Shown: in pieces, positions 28,356 through 42,287 of the stretch
How positions within the stretch are numbered: position 1 is the stretch's first letter
Layout of the letters: each line of letters starts with the position of its first letter
Assembly: GCA_003023745.1 (NCBI GenBank)
Contig: PXYV01000004.1
Coordinates: 46,213 to 110,212 of the forward strand
Length of the DNA: 64,000 bases
DNA from: Sulfobacillus acidophilus
Lineage (GTDB): Bacteria; Bacillota; Sulfobacillia; Sulfobacillales; Sulfobacillaceae
Reading direction: 5' to 3'
Position numbers and translations under genes: made by a program
Notes under the pieces: model-generated
The model's database searches: none
The model's input: the letters and a program-made list of their open reading frames with translations, nothing else
What the model was told of the DNA's origin: nothing

Positions 28356-29094
28356 GCGGACCGCTCAACGACGCGACAGTGATCGGGAGCATCGTGCCTC
28401 ACGCAAATCCCTGTATACGCCACCGTTACAGGCAAATTCCACGAAATCACACCGATCAGAACATTCTCAATGGTGCCGCTCTACCCGTTGATGAGCCGAC
28501 ATATAATCAGCCTCCATCACCAATCTAATATTCGGGCCGCTACGGAGCTTTCTGGCGCGGAAAAGAGGCTGTTTAGGAATTCCGACCGATCCCTCGGGAT
28601 GCTGGCCAACCTGCAAGACCCCATGACCCGACCCGTGGTTCCGACCACGAGCGGATCACATTCCCTTGGGTGCGCTCATCCATCAGAGGGTGCGCGGAGA
28701 CGACCGGCAACCTCGCCTCTCGCCGGGAGAACGCATCCTCGTGCGGGTGTTGGACGAATAGCCCGTCAGCGCCAAATGGCACCGCACGTCCAGACCGCGT
28801 CGTGCTAGCCGACCAGCGGAAAGTGGGTTAACATACGAATTTCGAAGTCAATCCACCAAAATTTCCGCCCCCTATTTCGGTCAATCTCCCCGTTGGCTTG
28901 GACGCTGTCTTTCGGTGTCATCATACGCCGGAAGGCGAGGAGTTTGTGCAGTTAAACGGGACGACGGTGGATACGGTGATAACACGAAAAAATTGCCGAA
29001 GGGCGAAGCCTGCCGTATGATGGAATCTAGTCAGTTTGTCGAATGCGCGCACTTTCCGCATCATCCGGTGCGATACAAGGAGGGCAATCCATCC

Positions 29095-30123
29095 ATGAAC
29101 ACACAGGAGAAAGGCGCCCGCTTAGAGCAGCAAGTGGCGGCGTATTTCCGATTGAACGGCTATGAGGTCGAGCAGAATGTCAAAATCGAGGGAAAGTCGG
29201 GCGGCATTCATGAAATCGATGTGTGGGCTCGTAAGTGGGACGGCATCACGGATTTTATCCTGGCCGTCGAATGCAAAGCCTGGGCGACGCCCATTGAGAA
29301 AGATGTCGTATCGAAGCTATCCATGGTGCTTGCGGACACGGGGATCAACAAGGGCATCATTGTGGCGTTACACGGTTGGCGTAGCGGCGCGGAAACCGCT
29401 GCTCGACAGGAGAAGATCGAATTATGGGGTCCCGCCGAGCTAACCGAACATTTGGGATCCGTGATGCTGGCCGATTTGAATGCGGCATCAACGAATCGAT
29501 TGGTGGTCGCCGCACCCTACCCAGTCCGGGTGGCGGAGCAAGACTTGCGCAAAACCTTGGACACGCAGTCGCGCGGCCTCTTTGGCACCGGTCGCGAGGA
29601 CCGGGTCTGGGAGCAACTGGCGTGGGTGCCGTTTCATCAACTGGAACTGCATTTGTCGACCGTCGTGCGGGAATTTTTGCGGCGACCGACGACGAAGGTT
29701 ACGACCGCATGGGCACTCTACAATGCGTTGGACAATCGCCATTATTTTAGCACGACCGAGAGCATGGTCCCCGCAGAGATTCAGGTTCCCGTAGCCATTT
29801 CCCCGAAAACCACAGCAAAGCCGATTGGTGCATCACTGGTCAACACGCTCAAAAAATATCAGGAAGTTACTCGGGAATCCAGCAAAGCCCGGTATCGCAC
29901 CCAATTACAAACCCTCGGAGTTCCGGATACCGTGGTCAGCTTGACCGTCGAGCACGCAACGATTGTCCATCTTCCGTTTTGGGTCGGCCTGTTCCACCGT
30001 CGGGGTACCGAACGGTTGGTCGCTATTAACGCCCACACGGGCACGGTGGACGGGAGTATAAGTCAAGCCTTGACGAAAAGCATGGCCTTCGTGCGTGCGG
30101 CGATGGAACCCGACGACCACTAA
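29095..30123 (+). CDS. Mrr-like restriction endonuclease/PD-(D/E)XK nuclease domain protein (start at MNTQEK)
   Basis: 'GARLEQQVAAYFRLNGYEVEQNVKIEGKSGGIHEIDVWARKWDGITDFILAVECKAWATPIEKDVVSKL': E...D...ECK catalytic pattern. Confidence 0.75.
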   Translation: MNTQEKGARLEQQVAAYFRLNGYEVEQNVKIEGKSGGIHEIDVWARKWDGITDFILAVECKAWATPIEKDVVSKLSMVLADTGINKGIIVALHGWRSGAETAARQEKIELWGPAELTEHLGSVMLADLNAASTNRLVVAAPYPVRVAEQDLRKTLDTQSRGLFGTGREDRVWEQLAWVPFHQLELHLSTVVREFLRRPTTKVTTAWALYNALDNRHYFSTTESMVPAEIQVPVAISPKTTAKPIGASLVNTLKKYQEVTRESSKARYRTQLQTLGVPDTVVSLTVEHATIVHLPFWVGLFHRRGTERLVAINAHTGTVDGSISQALTKSMAFVRAAMEPDDH

Positions 30124-30675
30124 ACGGGAAGCGTGCCGCGCAGTGGCGCTCGGGTCGTGAGGCGACGGGTCGCCGCCCGTTTGGCTCCCATACACGGACA
30201 CCCCGTATGGGCAGTGTCGGTCGTCGGTTTTCGCCGGGCCCCGCACAAATGCCATTCCAGCCGACCGATGCGATGACGCCCCGTGGGTCAGCAAACGATT
30301 GGCGATGGCGACAGCAAGATTCGTCAATGTGATGACCATAAGTATTAGCGCGAACACCCGAACTCAATCGAAGCGGGACGTGGCACCCGTGAATCCCCGT
30401 TTAACCCATATGTTGTAGGTCCGCTTTATCGGTCACTGAGGTTCGGGAACTTGTTCTGTGTCCGTCATCTCCTTCCGATAGACCCGTTCATGGTGATCCA
30501 TCGGACGTCGCGGCCGCGTGGTCCCATTTCTGGCCGTCTGGACAATCGCTTCAAAAGTTAGCGCTTATGTTACCCATGCCCCTCACCGTCTTTACGGAAC
30601 CGCCTGTCCGCGTGGGCCCCTGCTAACATCCCCCGAAATAATCGGCGATTCCCACAATTTGGGTGCGATAGACGT

Positions 30676-31259
30676 GTTGCGATATACTACGGCTCAGTTG
30701 TTGCATCACAAAATCCAGGCGGCGATGGCCGATCGTAATGCACCCTACCGGCTTCAGGGGATCGTGGAACTGGACGACGCGTATGTGGGCGGCGTGAGCC
30801 ACGGCACGGCGGGCCGCGGGACGAAACAGGATCCCGTGGTCGTCGGGGTCAGTCTGGATGGGCAGGGGCCCCCCGCAAAGCGTATTTCTCGAAATCGTGG
30901 CCTCGCTCCACAACGAGCACGTGTTGGCAGTGTTAGCGCGCCGGGTGGGGCAAGACGGTGTCTGGATGAGCGATGGAGCCGCCGCGGATGCGGCCGGAGC
31001 CAAAGCCCAGCATGCCGCGCACAAGGTCATCTTGAGCACCGATCCCGAGGCTCACACGGTCTTCCATTGGGTGAACACGGTCATCAGCCTCGTGAAAACC
31101 TTTGTCGACGGCACGCACCACGGGCGCGGCCGCGCTCGACGCCAACTCTATTGGGAAGAATTCACCTACCGCTTTAATCGCCGCCCCCTGGGGACGCGGA
31201 TTGCCGATCGCCTGCTCCCGGCCTGCCTCAGCAGCAACCCGCATCCGAATACGATCTAA
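30676..31259 (+). pseudogene. IS1595-family transposase, C-terminal half (one frameshift around 30.86 kb)
   Basis: 'LRYTTAQLLHHKIQAAMADRNAPYRLQGIVELDDAYVGG...' then in another frame 'QSVFLEIVASLHNEHVLAV...TFVDGTHHGRGRARRQLYWEEFTYRFNRR'. Confidence 0.85.
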
Positions 31260-31724
31260 CGCGGGCAACTGTACGCTACGGTCGGTACACTTCCCCAGAT
31301 TACATCCTCCCAGCACCGACGGCTTTCGGGGCAGATTACGTTATGCCCGCACAGCTTATCCAATATGCTCGCGGTCGCCATCGTGTCACGCGGTGATACG
31401 GTTCCACGAAAACGCCTGCGAAATTTGTCCTAGTTTTCTTGTTCGAGAGATAGGCCTAGTGGAAGCCGTACCCTATAACCTGACTCATCTAGGGATGTAT
31501 GACTCCAGATTCCCGTATTTTATCAAGTGAAATAATAGCGATCTGGAGGTCTGCGCTGTGACAACATGCCCGACCAACAATGAGTTATTCCGGGCTTTGC
31601 TGGCAAGGTTCGACCGCAATATGGGCCAGGCCGTCGATTAAGCCTGAGTAAAATACGACGTGGCAACAACCCTAGAAGAATAAGCCACACAAATTCCTTC
31701 CTTTGCTCGGCCGGTCCCCGATCG

Positions 31725-32090
31725 CTACAGGTCGCGCTCCGTCTTCAGCAAACGTTCCACCATCGCGTCAAATTCCTGCGACGTAATTAGCCCCTTAGCG
31801 TAACGCTCGCGTGCAATCTCGATAGGGTCTTGTTCCGACCGCGTTATCACCGGCCGCCCTGCCTCGGCCGACAACCCGTCCAGAGAACGCAGCCAGTAGG
31901 CAAATCCTGCCACCGCCGCTGATCCCACAACCACCATAAATACGACCCCAAGCAAAGGAAACATCCATCGAAACCAAAAAATAAACGGCATAGCCACCAC
32001 CGTTCCTTCCGGATCCCGCCGCCGCATCCGTTTGACATCTTCATCATACCCCAAGTCTCGGCACATTTCATGCCCCAATCGTCGCGACAC
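31725..32090 (-). CDS. SHOCT domain membrane protein
   Basis: One TM segment followed by 'DPIEIARERYAKGLITSQEFDAMVERLLKTE' SHOCT motif. Confidence 0.8.
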   Translation of the reverse strand: MSRRLGHEMCRDLGYDEDVKRMRRRDPEGTVVAMPFIFWFRWMFPLLGVVFMVVVGSAAVAGFAYWLRSLDGLSAEAGRPVITRSEQDPIEIARERYAKGLITSQEFDAMVERLLKTERDL

Positions 32091-32277
32091 CCCGAACCGT
32101 CACAGTCGACCCCTTTGGACGAAATAACGCCCGATTTCACGCATCCAAACGCGCCTGGACGCCTCAACTCACAGTGTTGGTATTTGCACCCCACCCGACA
32201 CACAAGGATTTTTATATGTAGAAGAAAGCATGATAGGATCTTTCTTCTGGCTCAATCGGCGGAAAGATTTTCTCCTC

Positions 32278-32305
32278 AAGTTATATACTCGAAGTTATAT
32301 ACTCG
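32278..32305 (+). repeat. Two exact tandem 14-bp direct repeats (AAGTTATATACTCG x2)
   Basis: aagttatatactcg aagttatatactcg, 255 bp upstream of the dikinase-like operon. Confidence 0.9.
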
Positions 32306-32559
32306 ACAAAACATCGCCGCAGCAGGAAATACCTTTTTTATAAAGAATTGATAAAGAATATAAAGATTCGCAAGGGACGTCGAGAAGATTGGGGAAACCA
32401 CTTGTAGGCAACAACGCTCTAGGTTAGTCAGGAAATCGCGGTGTGACGATGTCCATCTATGATTGGATCGGCGTCGCAACCCTTGGCTGAGTCTAGCCCA
32501 CACCTGATCTCAAAACTTCTCGCACATCTTTGCCTGAACGATCACGAGGAGGCTTTTCG

Positions 32560-34182
32560 ATGAGTCAATTAAAAGAACGTATTACATTATCTGCCGACGA
32601 CATCAAAGAGCGATTATGGACGCAGGACGGACTGCACTTTGGTCATCCCCTGACTCCGCTGTTTGCGTCTTACATGGTTCCGGCCATGACAGACGGCACA
32701 CGTCGCGCCTTTGAATCGCTCAAATCCCCCATGCGGCAATTTATCAGTAAAATACATGACGGTTATTATTATCAATCAGTCGTGCCAGCCGAGGGGGATC
32801 CACGCGCCATCGAGCGCGAACACCGCGCTGTCGTGGCGCCATTGATGGGGCACCTGCGCGAAAACTTGGCGCGCTATGTGGAGGACGTATTGTGGCCCAT
32901 GCATGAGGAAATCGACACACTGGCTCGCACTACCCAGACCAACGCCGACGCCATCGCGACACTCAGCCGATTAGAAGAAATTTACTCCACCTTTTGGGAA
33001 GCGCACTTCCGCATTGTGATGCCTCGCATGGCTGCGGGACTTGGATTTGAGGCGGTGTTCAAAGAAGCCTTCCCCGACCTCAATTCCGCTGAGGCGTATA
33101 ATCTTTTCGTCGGCGTGATGAATAAAACGTTGGAATCCGACCGCGCCCTATGGCAATTGGCAGAGCAAGCCAAACGCGAGCCCCAGGTTATGAAGGCTCT
33201 GTACAGTGAGGACATCGCACAAGCCCTGCAATCTAGTCCGGCCTGTGAAGAATACTGGACATCTGTTCAGAATTACCTTTCGGTATACGGCTGGCGTACG
33301 ATGTATGCCCACGAGTTTATCCACGAAACCTGGATTGAGTCTCCCAATTACTGCCTCTCCATAGTTCGCCGCTATGTAGAACAGGACTTTGATTTCGATC
33401 AGCATTGGGGAGGCATTATCAAAAACCGCGAGAAGCGATTCCAAGAGCTTTTACAGCAAATTGGCGACGCGTCGCTGCGCACACGGTTTCAGGAGCAATA
33501 TGCCAACGCCCTCGAAGCTTGGCCCATCGACGAAGATCACCACTTTTACATTGACGCCATGTTGCCGGCACGCAGCCGTCAGATCATCCGTCGGGTCGGG
33601 GCCCTCTTGGCTGATCAAGGCCTGCTCCGGACCTCCGACGACATTTGTTTCCTCTATCTCGATGAAGTGATGGATAGCTTGTCGGGCAGTGTTCCCCCAA
33701 CGCTACAAGACCGCATCGATGAGCGTCGCCGCGCCTATCATCAGCAGCGCCAAACGACACCCGTGCCACAATTGGGAACACCGCCCGAACACAGCGCCGA
33801 TCACGATCCCGTGTCGTCCCTGGTGTTCGGCGCGGGATCGCCGGGGCTAGAAGGCGCCACCCACGAGGTGCGGGGATTCGCCGCATCTCCCGGCCGTTAC
33901 GTCGGGCCCGTGCGCATCGTACGCAGCCCGGAGGAGTTTTTCAAGGTGCAACACGGTGATGTCCTGGTATGTCGCACTACCGCCCCGTCCTGGACGGGAC
34001 TCTTTGCAACGGTGGGCGCTGTCATCACAGAAACAGGCGGCATTTTATCCCATGCCTCCACCGTGGCCCGCGAATACGGCATCCCCTGTGTCGTCGGCAC
34101 GCGAGAAGCCACGCGCGTATTTCACGACGGCGATCGGGTCTTGGTCGACGGGAACCGCGGCATTGCGGTAATCGAGCACTAG
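32560..34182 (+). CDS. PEP-utilising-enzyme mobile (swivelling His) domain protein; dikinase subunit A-like
   Basis: C-terminus 'GAVITETGGILSHASTVAREYGIPCVVGTREATRVFHDGDRVLVDGNRGIAVIEH' is the phospho-His domain; about 430-aa unassigned N-terminal/central region; good RBS gaggagg. Confidence 0.85.
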   Translation: MSQLKERITLSADDIKERLWTQDGLHFGHPLTPLFASYMVPAMTDGTRRAFESLKSPMRQFISKIHDGYYYQSVVPAEGDPRAIEREHRAVVAPLMGHLRENLARYVEDVLWPMHEEIDTLARTTQTNADAIATLSRLEEIYSTFWEAHFRIVMPRMAAGLGFEAVFKEAFPDLNSAEAYNLFVGVMNKTLESDRALWQLAEQAKREPQVMKALYSEDIAQALQSSPACEEYWTSVQNYLSVYGWRTMYAHEFIHETWIESPNYCLSIVRRYVEQDFDFDQHWGGIIKNREKRFQELLQQIGDASLRTRFQEQYANALEAWPIDEDHHFYIDAMLPARSRQIIRRVGALLADQGLLRTSDDICFLYLDEVMDSLSGSVPPTLQDRIDERRRAYHQQRQTTPVPQLGTPPEHSADHDPVSSLVFGAGSPGLEGATHEVRGFAASPGRYVGPVRIVRSPEEFFKVQHGDVLVCRTTAPSWTGLFATVGAVITETGGILSHASTVAREYGIPCVVGTREATRVFHDGDRVLVDGNRGIAVIEH

Positions 34183-34200
34183 ATTTGGGGAGGGTCCACT

Positions 34201-35058
34201 ATGTACATTGCGTCGTTGACACAAACGAATTTAACGCGTCAGCAGGTCGGAGCGAAAGCCGCGTCCTTAGCGCGCATGGTCCAGTGCGGGATGCATGTGC
34301 CACCCGGATTTGTGGTGACCACGGCGGCCCATCAAGCTTTCCTGGCGGACGCCAACCCCACCATGCCGCAAGCCGTCCGCCGGGCCATTGAGGAATCTCT
34401 CGCCCAATTTCCCCCAACCGTACGGTTTGCGGTGCGCTCCTCAGGGGTTATGGAAGACTTGGAGCACGCCTCGTTCGCCGGCCAGTACGACACTGTACTG
34501 GACGTGGCCCATTCAGACGTGTTAGCGGCGGTGCAGCAATGCTGGGCCTCGGCCGACACCGAAACCGCGCAAGTGTATGCGCGCCAACGAGGGGTCGCCT
34601 TGACCGACCAGGCTATGGGCGTTATCGTGCAACGGCTGGTTGAAGCCCAAGTCGCAGGCGTGAGTTTCAGCCGCCACCCCGTCACTGGGGCACACCAAGT
34701 GGTCATTAATGCCTCCTATGGATTGGGTGAGTCCGTCGTCTCCGGGTTGGTCACACCCGATTTGTTCGAAGTCGATCCCATAACCGGTCAGGTGACGTCT
34801 GTACTCGGATTTAAAGAACATCTCGTGCGTCGCAGTCCCCGCGGTGGCACCGAGCAAATTGACACACCAGCTGAGCTAGCCAGCCAATTCTGCTTGCAAG
34901 CCGACCAAGTGCAGGAAATTGCCCGCTTAACCACGGCTCTTGAAACCTATTGCGGATTTCCGGTCGACTGGGAATGGGCGCTGGCCGACAACATCGTCTA
35001 TTGTCTACAAGTTCGCCCCATTACCAGCGTTGGCAAGCCACTTCATGGCCGCATCTAA
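34201..35058 (+). CDS. PEP synthase-type ATP-binding domain protein (PPDK_N); dikinase subunit B-like
   Basis: 'GAKAASLARMVQCGMHVPPGFVVTT', 'RFAVRSSGVMEDLEHASFAGQYDTVLDV', 'VSFSRHPVTGAHQVVINASYGLGESVVSG', 'DWEWALADNIVYCLQVRPITS'. Confidence 0.93.
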   Translation: MYIASLTQTNLTRQQVGAKAASLARMVQCGMHVPPGFVVTTAAHQAFLADANPTMPQAVRRAIEESLAQFPPTVRFAVRSSGVMEDLEHASFAGQYDTVLDVAHSDVLAAVQQCWASADTETAQVYARQRGVALTDQAMGVIVQRLVEAQVAGVSFSRHPVTGAHQVVINASYGLGESVVSGLVTPDLFEVDPITGQVTSVLGFKEHLVRRSPRGGTEQIDTPAELASQFCLQADQVQEIARLTTALETYCGFPVDWEWALADNIVYCLQVRPITSVGKPLHGRI

Positions 35059-36382
35059 GTCCTTGGATCGGTCTGGCCAATGGGTTTTAGCTGCCGTTGT
35101 GGTGTCGGTGGTGCTCATTCCCATCAATTCGACAATGATTGCGGTGGGTCTGGTGCCGATTGCCCATGGCCTTCACACTCCAGTCACCCGGGTGGTGTGG
35201 GCGGTGACCAGTTATTTGGTCATCATGGCGGCGTTGCAGCCGATTTCGGGGAAATTTGGAGATTTATATGGCCGTCGCCGCGTGTTGCTTCTCGGTCTGG
35301 CCATCTTTCTGGTATCTTCCGTATTGGCTGCCGTGACGCCGCATTTGTGGGCTTTGCTTAGCTTTCGCTCGGGCCAGGCCGTCGGCGGCGCCTTGATCGT
35401 GCCTAACGCGATGGGCGTCGTTCGGCGTCACTTCCTGCGGGACGACCTCCGTCGCGCCCTTGGTATTGTGGGCTTAACCCAAGGATTGGGAGCAGCCAGT
35501 GGTCCCCTTATCGGCGCCGCGTTGTTGGCGTGGGGCGGCTGGACAGCTATTTTCTGGGTTAATGTGCCCGTCGTGGCGCTCGCGTTATGGACCGTCAGGA
35601 CGAAAGTTCCGCAAGACCAGCCCGGTGCGCCAAGTCGTGTCGATGGATTAGGTGCACTGGCCTTGGCAGGTTTTCTCGCGCTCTTAGCTCTTTCGCTGCC
35701 ACGATCGGGAGACTTTCACCGATGGATTGAGACACTCCCCGCCTGTGTGTTGTTGATGGGGCTTTTTGTCGTCGTTGAGCGGCGCGCCGCTAATCCCATC
35801 GTTCGCTTTCAATTCTTTCGCCGCCGACCCTTCGCCAGCGCCAACGGCGCTATCCTGTTGAGCAATTTCTTCATGTATGCCACCCTCCTCTACATGCCGA
35901 TTTACTTAAAAAATCACGGCTACACCGCCACTGCCACGGGAATTTTGCTGTTTTTGTTCTCCTTCGCCATGTCGCTCACGTCGTGGGGAGGAAGTTATGC
36001 CGGGCGCAAATTAGGTGGACAGCGCGTCGTTGCCCTCGCTTTTGTGCTGGACTTGTTGGTGGTTGGCTGGTATATAGACCTTGTGCATCACAGCGGGTTG
36101 TGGTTGGTGATTATCGGACTCATCCTAGCGGGATTGGGCGCCGGCGTCGGCACCGTGACAATGCAGGCTACGGCTCTGGAATCGGTCGACATCGAAATAG
36201 CGGGCGTATCGGCGGGAATCTACTCCACCTTCCGTTATCTCGGCAGCATTACTGCATCGGCGCTCATCAGTCTCATGCTATTCAGTCCTGCCGTGCATAG
36301 CATCGTTCTGGGCGGCATCGCGCTGTTGGGGTTAATGGTGTCGTGGGGCTTTCCCCGCCGGCCGCATCAAAGTGGGGCCTAA
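35045..36382 (+). CDS. MFS transporter (DHA2-like), overlaps the 3' end of the dikinase gene by 14 bp
   Basis: 'SYLVIMAALQPISGKFGDLYGRRRVLLLGLAIF' MFS motif A; start MAASKSLDRSGQW. Confidence 0.9.
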   Translation: MAASKSLDRSGQWVLAAVVVSVVLIPINSTMIAVGLVPIAHGLHTPVTRVVWAVTSYLVIMAALQPISGKFGDLYGRRRVLLLGLAIFLVSSVLAAVTPHLWALLSFRSGQAVGGALIVPNAMGVVRRHFLRDDLRRALGIVGLTQGLGAASGPLIGAALLAWGGWTAIFWVNVPVVALALWTVRTKVPQDQPGAPSRVDGLGALALAGFLALLALSLPRSGDFHRWIETLPACVLLMGLFVVVERRAANPIVRFQFFRRRPFASANGAILLSNFFMYATLLYMPIYLKNHGYTATATGILLFLFSFAMSLTSWGGSYAGRKLGGQRVVALAFVLDLLVVGWYIDLVHHSGLWLVIIGLILAGLGAGVGTVTMQATALESVDIEIAGVSAGIYSTFRYLGSITASALISLMLFSPAVHSIVLGGIALLGLMVSWGFPRRPHQSGA

Positions 36383-36688
36383 CTTCGTTTTTACGACAAT
36401 CCAGGGAACCGGAGCAGACGTTGGTCTACCTGTCGCCGTTCTTTGCCCAGGTGGTCCCTTGGCGGTTACCCGCAGTTGTAAGAGATCACCACTAACGTGT
36501 CCACTTGGGTGCGGTCCACTGGCAGACAGCAATATCTTGGCAGAACCGTTTTTCCTGCATTCGATCAGGTGCCGCCCCCTCTGTTATCCAAGGCCGCACC
36601 ACGGGGCTTAAAAACGGCGCTCGCAAAAGGAGAACGGCTGCGAAAAACTAGGGTTCACGGATTAGTCTCCCCATCCCTGTATTGCCCG

Positions 36689-38149
36689 CTATCCCGGGGC
36701 TGGCTGGCGCCGCATTTGGTCGGGCTCATCGGGATTATCCACCCGGCCGCTCGCGGAAAAGAAGACTGCCAACACGTTCAGTGCCGCCATCACCCAAAAC
36801 GTGCCGCGAATGCCCACCAGAAATTTGGGCAACACCGCTGTGCCGTTTGGCAAGGCCCGGGCGGTTCCGGTAAAAATCGCCAACATCGCGTCTCGTGGAA
36901 CAACACTCGCGACGACCGCAAACGCCAGCGCAATGGACAACATCATTCCGGTGTTGGTGGTAAGCGCCCGAATACCCGACGCTTCGCCCCGGCGCGCCGG
37001 TCCCGCCGCCGTCATCATGCGGCTGGTGTTGGGCGAATTAAATATCCCGGCCCCTACGCCAATAATCGCCATCCACAGCGCCAGCATGAGATATGCGCTA
37101 TGCAAATGTAACCCTAAAGCCAATCCCACGAATCCGACAGTGGACACAATCAGTCCCACCGTCGCCGGCCGGGTGGTGCCAAATCGATCGGCTATGGCCC
37201 CGCCAATTGGTGCCAATACCAACATGCCCGCCGCCAAAGGAATCAACCGCAACCCGGCTACCAACGCCGTTTCCCCTTCTGCCCCTTGAAAGTAAAAAAT
37301 CATCAAAAAGATTACTGCCATGCGCGCAATGGCATTGAGCGCCGCGGCAACCGATCCAAACCCGAACGCACGGATCCTCAATAACGGCAGATGCAATAAC
37401 GGGGCCGGGTTGCGCGATTCAATCAATATCCAGGCCGGCAATCCCACGACAAAAACCGCCCCGGCAATGAGTACAGAAGCACTGGCCCAGCCGGAGACAG
37501 CGCCAACCGAGAGGGCATACAACAATCCCGTAATCGCAAAGACATAGGTAATAATCCCACCCACGTCCACAGGTACACGGTCCTTGCTCGTGCCCTTAAA
37601 GCCCAGCACCCAGATCGCCCAGAAAACGGCAATAAGGCCAATGGGCACGTTAAACCAAAACGTCCAGCGCCACCCATACAACGTCGTCAGCCATCCACCC
37701 ACCACGGGACCCAAAATTTGCCCAACGGCCACCACCATCACATTGATCCCCAGCGCCCGACTCAGTTCACGCCGCGGAAAGCTCTGCGCCACAATCGCGG
37801 TGCTATTCGCCATGACCAAAGCCCCGCCAATCCCCTGGAAAACCCTCCAGAGGATCAGTTCCGGAGCATTGGGACTGGCGCCCGCCACCAAAGAAAACAG
37901 CGTAAACACCGCTAATCCCACAATATACAAACGGCGCCGACCAAACCGATCAGCCAGGCTGCCGCCCATCAGCACCATGACCGTTTGCGCGACCATATAA
38001 GCAAAAAGAATCCACACTCCTTGCAAGATGGTCGCATGCAACCCCCGCATGAGCTGCGGCAGCGCGATAATCAAGGTGCTAAAATTCAAAGCAGACAGCA
38101 ACGTTCCCAAACTGGTCGTCGACAAGACTTGCCACCGGTTTTCGTTCAT
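36689..38149 (-). CDS. MFS transporter (DHA2/EmrB-like; start at MNENRWQV)
   Basis: 'QTVMVLMGGSLADRFGRRRLYIVGLAVFTLFSL...GIGGALVMANSTAIVAQSFPRRELSRALGI'. Confidence 0.92.
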   Translation of the reverse strand: MNENRWQVLSTTSLGTLLSALNFSTLIIALPQLMRGLHATILQGVWILFAYMVAQTVMVLMGGSLADRFGRRRLYIVGLAVFTLFSLVAGASPNAPELILWRVFQGIGGALVMANSTAIVAQSFPRRELSRALGINVMVVAVGQILGPVVGGWLTTLYGWRWTFWFNVPIGLIAVFWAIWVLGFKGTSKDRVPVDVGGIITYVFAITGLLYALSVGAVSGWASASVLIAGAVFVVGLPAWILIESRNPAPLLHLPLLRIRAFGFGSVAAALNAIARMAVIFLMIFYFQGAEGETALVAGLRLIPLAAGMLVLAPIGGAIADRFGTTRPATVGLIVSTVGFVGLALGLHLHSAYLMLALWMAIIGVGAGIFNSPNTSRMMTAAGPARRGEASGIRALTTNTGMMLSIALAFAVVASVVPRDAMLAIFTGTARALPNGTAVLPKFLVGIRGTFWVMAALNVLAVFFSASGRVDNPDEPDQMRRQPAPG

Positions 38150-38341
38150 TGCGTCCTCCCTATGTTGTGTACGGTCAAACCGGCCCGCCCGCGGCGACAC
38201 CTCCCCTGCACCGCTGCTACGACGATCGAGATAGCACGTCCACCACCTTAGCCCAGGGGGCCTCTCCCGGCGGGGAGCGATCGGGCGGGAAGCCATTAGG
38301 GCGTCCTCTCCCCAATGGCCCGCCGCTGACCCCGAAATCCA

Positions 38342-40973: not shown

Positions 40974-42287
40974 ATGGTTTTTGTTCTCGACAAGCAGAAG
41001 AAACCTCTAATGCCCTGTTCCGAAAAGCGGGCGCGGCTCCTTCTCGAACGCCGCCGGGCACGGGTCGTCAACATAGTGCCCTTCACGATTCGCTTGGTGG
41101 ATCGCCTTCGAGAAAACTCGGTCTTGCAAGACATGCGCCTCAAGCTCGATCCGGGCTCGAAGACGACGGGCATGGCGATCACGTTGGATGGTATCCACGG
41201 CACGCACGTCGTCTTTCTCGGCGAGATTGTCCACAAGTCGGGGATCCAGGCCCGACTCGAGGCCCGACGAGCGGTACGTCGCGGGCGACGGTTTCGCCAT
41301 ACCCGCTATCGTGCGGCCCGGTTTCAGAATCGGACGCGGAAGGACGGGTGGTTGCCCCCGTCGCTCGCGGCACGCGTGAATCAAACGCTCCGTACCGTGG
41401 ACAAAATTCGCGCTCATGCGCCTATCACCGCCATGAGTGTGGAGCATGTTCGCTTCGACACCCAAAAGCTCGAAAACCCGGAAATCGTGGGCGTGGAGTA
41501 TCAGCAGGGCACCCTCCTAGGCTACGAAGTGCGGGAGTATCTGTTGGAGAAATGGGGCCGCACCTGCGTGTACTGTGGCGCCACCGATGTCCCGTTGCAG
41601 GTGGAACACATCATTCCCAAGCGGCGGGGCGGCAGCAATCGGATGAGCAATCTAACCCTCGCCTGCAAACCCTGCAACCTCCAGAAGGGGAAGCAGACCG
41701 CAGCGGAATTCGGCCATCCGGATGTTCAAGTCCACGCCCGTCAGCCTCTCAAAGATGCAGCGCTCATGAACGCCACGCGGTGGCGATTGTACCACCAACT
41801 GCAAGCGACGAGCCTGCCGGTGGAAGGCGGCTCCGGTGGCCGGACCAAAAAGCAACGGATTGCGCACGACTTGCCCAAAGAACATTACTACGATGCGCTC
41901 TGTGTCGGGAAAAGCACGCCTGCGCAATTCCTGACCCTGCCGGCTTTCGTCCAGATCTGGTCAGCGAAAGGACGCGGCAATCGCCAGCGCTGCCGCACCG
42001 ACAAGCATGGATTTCCGATCCGTCACTTGTCTCGGCAGAAACACCATTTTGGATTTCAGACCGGGGATCTCGTGCAAGCCGTCATCCCTCACGGGAAATA
42101 CGCGGGTACTTGGACCGGGCGGGCGACTGTGAAAGCGAGTGGATCGATCCGCATTGTCACGAGCATTGGCGTTCATCCCACGACCTCGTATCGCTATGGT
42201 CACGTGCTCCAGCGCGGCAATGGCTGGGTCTATACTCAAAAACCTTCCAATCAGGAAAGGGGGAAGGCGGCTTCCTCCCCGGCTTGA
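40974..42287 (+). CDS. iscB: RNA-guided endonuclease IscB (PLMP, split RuvC, Arg-rich bridge helix, HNH)
   Basis: 'KPLMPCSEKRARLLLERRRARVV' (PLMP), 'KLDPGSKTTGMAI' (RuvC I), 'RRAVRRGRRFRHTRYRAARFQNR' (bridge), 'MSVEHVRF' (RuvC II), 'CVYCGATDVPLQVEHIIPKRRGGSNRMSNLTLACKPCNLQKG' (HNH), 'KEHYYDALCVG' (RuvC III). Confidence 0.95.
   Translation: MVFVLDKQKKPLMPCSEKRARLLLERRRARVVNIVPFTIRLVDRLRENSVLQDMRLKLDPGSKTTGMAITLDGIHGTHVVFLGEIVHKSGIQARLEARRAVRRGRRFRHTRYRAARFQNRTRKDGWLPPSLAARVNQTLRTVDKIRAHAPITAMSVEHVRFDTQKLENPEIVGVEYQQGTLLGYEVREYLLEKWGRTCVYCGATDVPLQVEHIIPKRRGGSNRMSNLTLACKPCNLQKGKQTAAEFGHPDVQVHARQPLKDAALMNATRWRLYHQLQATSLPVEGGSGGRTKKQRIAHDLPKEHYYDALCVGKSTPAQFLTLPAFVQIWSAKGRGNRQRCRTDKHGFPIRHLSRQKHHFGFQTGDLVQAVIPHGKYAGTWTGRATVKASGSIRIVTSIGVHPTTSYRYGHVLQRGNGWVYTQKPSNQERGKAASSPA

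Follow-up and report, generated by a model that had tools for sequence, protein, structure and literature searches.

A split, barrel-less dikinase with a co-inherited MFS transporter in Sulfobacillus acidophilus, a probable two-chain counterpart of YvkC/YvkA

What might a bacterium do with a dikinase that is divided over two polypeptides, lacks the phosphoenolpyruvate (PEP)/pyruvate-binding barrel and is encoded beside a transporter of the major facilitator superfamily (MFS)? The question is raised by three adjoining genes in a 64,000-nucleotide stretch of Sulfobacillus acidophilus DNA (contig PXYV01000004.1, positions 46,213 to 110,212; hereafter the window). The original prediction saw in them a two-subunit ATP-dependent phosphotransferase whose substrate or product is moved by the MFS pump, possibly a resistance or aromatic-activation module of a type not described in this lineage. 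We consider it likely, with a probability of about 0.7, that the genes encode a two-subunit ATP-dependent phosphotransferase and a co-inherited efflux-type MFS transporter, and that this cassette is the split counterpart of YvkC/YvkA of Bacillus subtilis.

All three open reading frames are intact and lie on the forward strand where they had been predicted. Gene 1 (32560..34182; ATG at 32560, stop at 34182) encodes 540 aa, gene 2 (34201..35058) a stand-alone PPDK_N-type ATP-grasp subunit of 285 aa, and gene 3 (35045..36382; ATG at 35045) a DHA2/EmrB-like MFS transporter of 445 aa; genes 2 and 3 overlap by the expected 14 bp (35045-35058). In a Pfam scan, gene 2 matched PF01326 (228.9 bits) and gene 3 matched MFS_1 PF07690 (182.1 bits); against TIGR00711, gene 3 scored 139.8 bits, under the cut-off of 230.2. 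The sole Pfam match of gene 1 was PF00391 at residues 464-534 (86.7 bits), and no Pfam family was assigned to its N-terminal ~430 residues. This region had been called unassigned, which holds for Pfam, but it does have relatives: the RPH, PigC/RedH and PRK08296 profiles of NCBIfam align across much of its length. The phospho-His motif reads T490-E-T-G-G-I-L-S-H498. The predicted phosphorylated residue of this T/SxxGGxxxH motif, His498 (codon 34051..34053, +), is equivalent to His825 of rifampin phosphotransferase (RPH) and His581 of HpeH, and is invariant across every homolog aligned. The ATP-grasp domain (gene 2) and the acceptor and His domains (gene 1) are thus carried by separate polypeptides.

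The fold of the unassigned region was assessed with an AlphaFold2 model of gene 1 built from a 37-sequence alignment (pLDDT 90.9, pTM 0.90). The model is helical to about residue 423 save for a few short strands, and the swivel domain follows. RPH of Listeria is its top match by a wide margin (Foldseek, VIA-align 2) and the sole match over the whole length, with residues 9-540 corresponding to RPH 319-867 (Z 31.3, 482 residues aligned); the matches to PPDK, pyruvate kinase and enzyme I are essentially confined to the swivel domain. This comparison, which had been suggested in advance, places an acceptor-binding domain resembling the rifampin-binding domain of RPH at residues ~9-405 and the phospho-His swivel domain at residues ~433-540. 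The gene 2 model (pLDDT 93.0) is a complete ATP-grasp whose best PDB match is the ATP-grasp of RPH (TMq 0.89), with K19, R79 and T98 aligning with RPH Lys22, Arg117 and Thr136. It also matches 9goj, HpeI of Rhodococcus, the ATP subunit of the two-component phenolic dikinase HpeHI (PMC12167813). No PEP/pyruvate-binding TIM barrel is present in gene 1 or gene 2, either by Pfam or in the AlphaFold2 models, as had been predicted. The cassette shares ATP-grasp and phospho-His domains with PEP synthase and PPDK but lacks their barrel, which rules out identity with PEP synthase. The N-terminal region of gene 1 is thus a homolog of the acceptor domain found in RPH and in the two-component phenolic kinases. 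The prediction of a two-subunit, barrel-less, ATP-dependent small-molecule phosphotransferase, like RPH and phenylphosphate synthase in kind and with an MFS partner, is supported.

A module of this type is not in itself new, contrary to what had been proposed. Two-component dikinases with the architecture of genes 1 and 2 have been characterised, namely HpeHI, CreHI and PpsAB (PMC12167813), and a fused relative, YvkC/YvkA, is also known. HpeHI (the hydroxyphenylethanone kinase of Rhodococcus), CreHI (4-cresol kinase) and PpsAB (phenylphosphate synthase) resemble the window in their separate acceptor/His and ATP-grasp subunits, RPH-like fold, T/SxxGGxxxH motif and E-[DN]-H acceptor-site signature. 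However, gene 1 is shorter than their acceptor subunits (540 versus ~610 aa; ~26-27% identity), and they fall in a separate clade and reside in catabolic operons; none of the annotated examples examined has an MFS partner. RPH has the same whole gene 1 fold, ATP-grasp fold and three functional domains, although in a single chain (~24% identity).

The nearest characterised relative is YvkC. Two genomes of the phylum encode a fused ATP-acceptor-His protein with adjoining TetR and MFS genes, next to UvrA/UvrB-like genes. In a third such genome (locus L158), five published yvkC primers for B. subtilis 168 (PMC11124408) match with zero mismatches. The fused gene at L158 is therefore yvkC. Going by the B. 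subtilis gene map, we take its MFS and TetR neighbours to be YvkA and YvkB. Gene 1 is 34% identical to the acceptor-His half of this YvkC (324 bits, blastp), gene 2 is 35% identical to its ATP-grasp half (177 bits) and gene 3 is 37% identical to YvkA (256 bits, blastp); the scores of gene 1 against HpeH, PpsA and RPH relatives were 167, 165 and 116 bits. In both loci the MFS gene lies downstream of the kinase. In Bacillus, however, YvkC is a single fused chain of about 833-881 aa rather than two chains, a TetR gene stands between kinase and MFS, and in the window alone is the His part encoded first. YvkC is reported to be a flavonoid phosphate synthetase that phosphorylates flavonoids in vitro, yielding their monophosphates together with AMP and Pi (Hsu et al. 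2023, Food Chem 400:134001, as cited in PMC11124408 and PMC13099321). The literature searched gave no published in vivo role for YvkC-type enzymes, and queries for yvkC together with yvkA, or for PigC with ATP-grasp, returned no results.

Placement with YvkC was borne out by trees of all three proteins. In a maximum likelihood tree of the acceptor/His part (65 rows), gene 1 falls in a 26-row clade (support 100/99) with all Bacillota cassettes, and two YvkC-type proteins nest within this split clade. The annotated catabolic-type kinases form a separate 100/100 clade that comprises Azoarcus PpsA (in a carboxylase operon), a Rhizobium pair (biotin carboxylase cluster), a Rhodococcus pair (cytochrome P450) and two more; RPH forms a further separate 100/100 clade. 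The YvkC of L158 is placed with the cassette proteins in the ATP-grasp tree, and the MFS tree contains a cassette clade of 33 rows (SH-aLRT 99), so that YvkC/YvkA and the window share a clade in kinase, ATP-grasp and MFS trees alike. Because genomes group in the MFS and ATP-grasp trees as they do in the gene 1 tree, kinase and transporter have been inherited together. The window holds a second DHA2-type MFS gene (36689-38296, -), convergent with the cassette and distantly related to gene 3. It falls far outside the cassette MFS clade, and we therefore rejected the idea that gene 3 is a DHA2 transporter that merely happens to lie nearby.

The acceptor site also sets the clade apart. RPH uses Arg666-Glu667 and Lys670 at this site, its activity is abolished by mutating either Arg666 or Glu667, and the two residues that bind the phosphate being transferred, Arg666 and Lys670, are kept even in its distant clade Q (PMC4844700). 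The corresponding register in gene 1 was taken from a MAFFT alignment of 95 proteins; phmmer alone shifts the RPH Arg-Glu pair by one residue, and intermediate R-E-[ND]-Q-x-F proteins in the multi-sequence alignment fix it. In place of Arg-Glu-x-x-Lys, gene 1 has D324-E325-x-x-H328, with the Glu alone retained, within the signature DEDHHFYIDAMLPA (residues 324-337; 33529..33570, +). The pattern D326-H-H-F...I-D-A-M is common to 28 of 28 cassette-clade proteins and differs in RPH and the phenolic kinases, and YvkC has the same motif as the window (DDHHFYIDAM versus DEDHHFYIDAM). Further clade-specific residues in these 28 proteins are P41, H251, F279, Y366 and F460, with Y366 and F460 showing no more than one exception. 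By analogy, E325, H327 and H328 may act in place of the Glu and Arg/Lys of RPH.

Co-occurrence of the three genes in relatives had been named beforehand as a test of the original prediction, and the triplet was indeed found in 25 other genomes. A search of 60 relatives yielded triplets in the same family, Sulfobacillaceae (8), and in its sister family (4), and a scan of named genomes yielded 13 in Bacillales (Brevibacillus, Paenibacillus, Priestia, Gottfriedia, Halalkalibacter, Neobacillus, Ammoniphilus and Alicyclobacillus), one of which (L056) has broken frames. Gene 1 orthologs are 38-60% identical. The cassette is present in 9 of the 34 genomes from the window's family and in 1 of the 8 from its genus. 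In an evenly drawn sample of the phylum, the remaining 397 genomes all lacked it, although two of them hold fused relatives. Looser arrangements of a split kinase and an MFS gene are seen in Gemmatimonadota, Chloroflexota and one actinomycete. No flanking genes in common were found between distant carriers, and since the flanks differ, the triplet is the unit; the three genes form a conserved operon. An Rfam search over 31500-36800 gave no regulatory RNA at gathering score, PADLOC defence models did not match the cassette, and the only other PPDK_N protein found in the incomplete source genome is PPDK-like and 899 aa long.

By homology to HpeHI and RPH (PMC12167813, PMC4844700), a probable order of events can be proposed. 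Gene 2 would bind ATP, the swivel His498 of gene 1 would dock on gene 2 and take the beta-phosphate, becoming (pyro)phosphorylated, and AMP and Pi would be released; both subunits would be needed for this phosphoryl chemistry. The swivel would then move over to gene 1's own helical acceptor domain. There, at the EDHHF site, a hydrophobic aromatic acceptor would receive the phosphate on one of its hydroxyls, most likely a phenolic OH. Gene 3 would expel the acceptor or its phosphate ester, the presumed direction of transport being outward, and the net effect would be detoxification or export of a phenol-like compound. The acceptor is probably phenolic or flavonoid-like, given the relationship to YvkC (~34% identity) and the shared acceptor-site residues. 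Detoxification or resistance with efflux appears to be the best-fitting physiological role, owing to the co-inherited DHA2-type MFS; of the resistance module first proposed, this part seems to survive, and rifampicin is an unlikely substrate because RPH Arg666 and Lys670 are not kept.

The same substitutions bear on the reading of the locus as a split, rifamycin-inactivating RPH with a drug efflux pump, that is, an antibiotic-resistance module. It would account for the RPH fold of gene 1 and ATP-grasp of gene 2 and for a DHA2 drug-efflux-like MFS, yet D324 and H328 replace the Arg and Lys, gene 1 and gene 2 score 111 and 189 bits against the RPH model NF041857 (cut-off 999), and RPH and the cassette stand in separate clades; we regard it as very improbable. 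Were the pair instead a phenol-activating enzyme of catabolism, of the PpsAB, CreHI or HpeHI type, starting aromatic breakdown with gene 3 as importer, this would fit the two-subunit split, the shared E-[DN]-H-x-F signature and the His-then-ATP order that the window has in common with PpsA-PpsB and HpeH-HpeI. However, gene 1 reaches at best 202 bits against NCBIfam PRK08296.1-2 to.1-5 (cut-off 578), where PpsA/HpeH-type references score about 770-1300 bits on their best models, and it belongs to a distinct clade. The reference pairs adjoin carboxylases, P450 or other catabolic genes; none was recognised beside the window cassette, and the neighbourhoods of distant carriers have no genes in common. 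Because no such gene accompanies the cassette, a catabolic role, and with it the aromatic-activation module of the original prediction, is quite unlikely.

The remaining alternative is natural-product tailoring or self-protection, in which the pair phosphorylates a host compound, or ligates it like PigC/RedH, and the transporter exports it. A Bacillus-family genome (L159:2-12107) has a same-clade split ATP-grasp and acceptor/His pair inside an apparent nonribosomal peptide synthetase (NRPS) cluster that also holds a signal-peptidase-like gene. The pair lies between an NRPS-like gene and genes resembling a type II thioesterase, an Sfp phosphopantetheinyl transferase and an ABC transporter, and the kinase may alter or mask the peptide made by this cluster. 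Such a setting would fit tailoring, as would the scores of gene 1 against the PigC and RedH ligase models (130 and 176 bits), which rank with its better partial matches. However, these scores do not come close to the cut-offs of 1300 and 1350, the genes flanking the window cassette include none recognised as biosynthetic, and neighbours differ from one cassette to another. We judge this reading to be unlikely.

Several points nevertheless weigh against a split counterpart of YvkC/YvkA acting in detoxification. Identity to YvkC is just ~34-35%, and acceptor specificity shifts fast in this superfamily. The pair at L159 has an ABC transporter in place of an MFS, so a tie to MFS or to detoxification is not a constant of the family. 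No TetR adjoins the window cassette, unlike yvkB, and plant flavonoids do not readily suggest themselves as a substrate in acidophilic hosts such as these. The literature yielded no biochemical data for any member of the split clade. Finally, the gene order is ATP-grasp, acceptor/His, MFS in all relatives, and the window alone has acceptor/His, ATP-grasp, MFS. The swapped order may be an assembly artefact, although the contig is continuous over 116 kb and the three frames are all intact.

Other features were noted around the cassette and in other genomes. Directly upstream, at 30518-31259 (+), broken frames resemble a degraded ISXO2/IS1595-type transposase, with no Pfam match in the single frame scanned. 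An Mrr-type restriction endonuclease-like gene lies at 28996-30120 (+) and an IscB-like gene with RRXRR and HNH endonuclease domains at 40974-42287 (+). In a Trueperaceae genome (L062:4115-13312), two fused ATP-acceptor-His genes stand in tandem, and after each comes an MFS gene or a piece of one; this is a distinct combination of fused kinase and MFS that does not belong to the cassette clade. Four orphan paralogs of gene 1 (L122:8973-10586, L123:6252-7841, L124:2413-4053 and L125:4506-6107) are 39-41% identical to it and have the same motif, with no adjoining ATP-grasp or MFS gene. They occur in three genomes (G012, G018 and G020), each of which also has a full cassette.

Two-component dikinases and YvkC were already known; what is added here is a split clade with YvkC inside it, the conserved association of this clade with a single MFS lineage, the permuted order in the window and the orphan paralogs. 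That kinase and exporter have been co-inherited across Bacillota, whether the kinase is split or fused, points towards detoxification linked to efflux, and the split form suggests that two-chain barrel-less dikinases are not limited to aromatic catabolism. The orphan paralogs may borrow the ATP-grasp subunit of the cassette, so that one such subunit would possibly be shared among several acceptor subunits. More tentatively, and as a possibility we hold to be less probable than not, the split operon could represent an ancestral phosphorylate-and-export route that was fused later into YvkC in Bacillus, its ATP-grasp subunit perhaps also serving the orphan acceptor/His paralogs in Sulfobacillaceae, which would differ in specificity. 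If so, the dedicated MFS would recognise and expel the phenolic phosphate made by the kinase, which would give flavonoid-phosphate-synthetase-type enzymes a physiological role.

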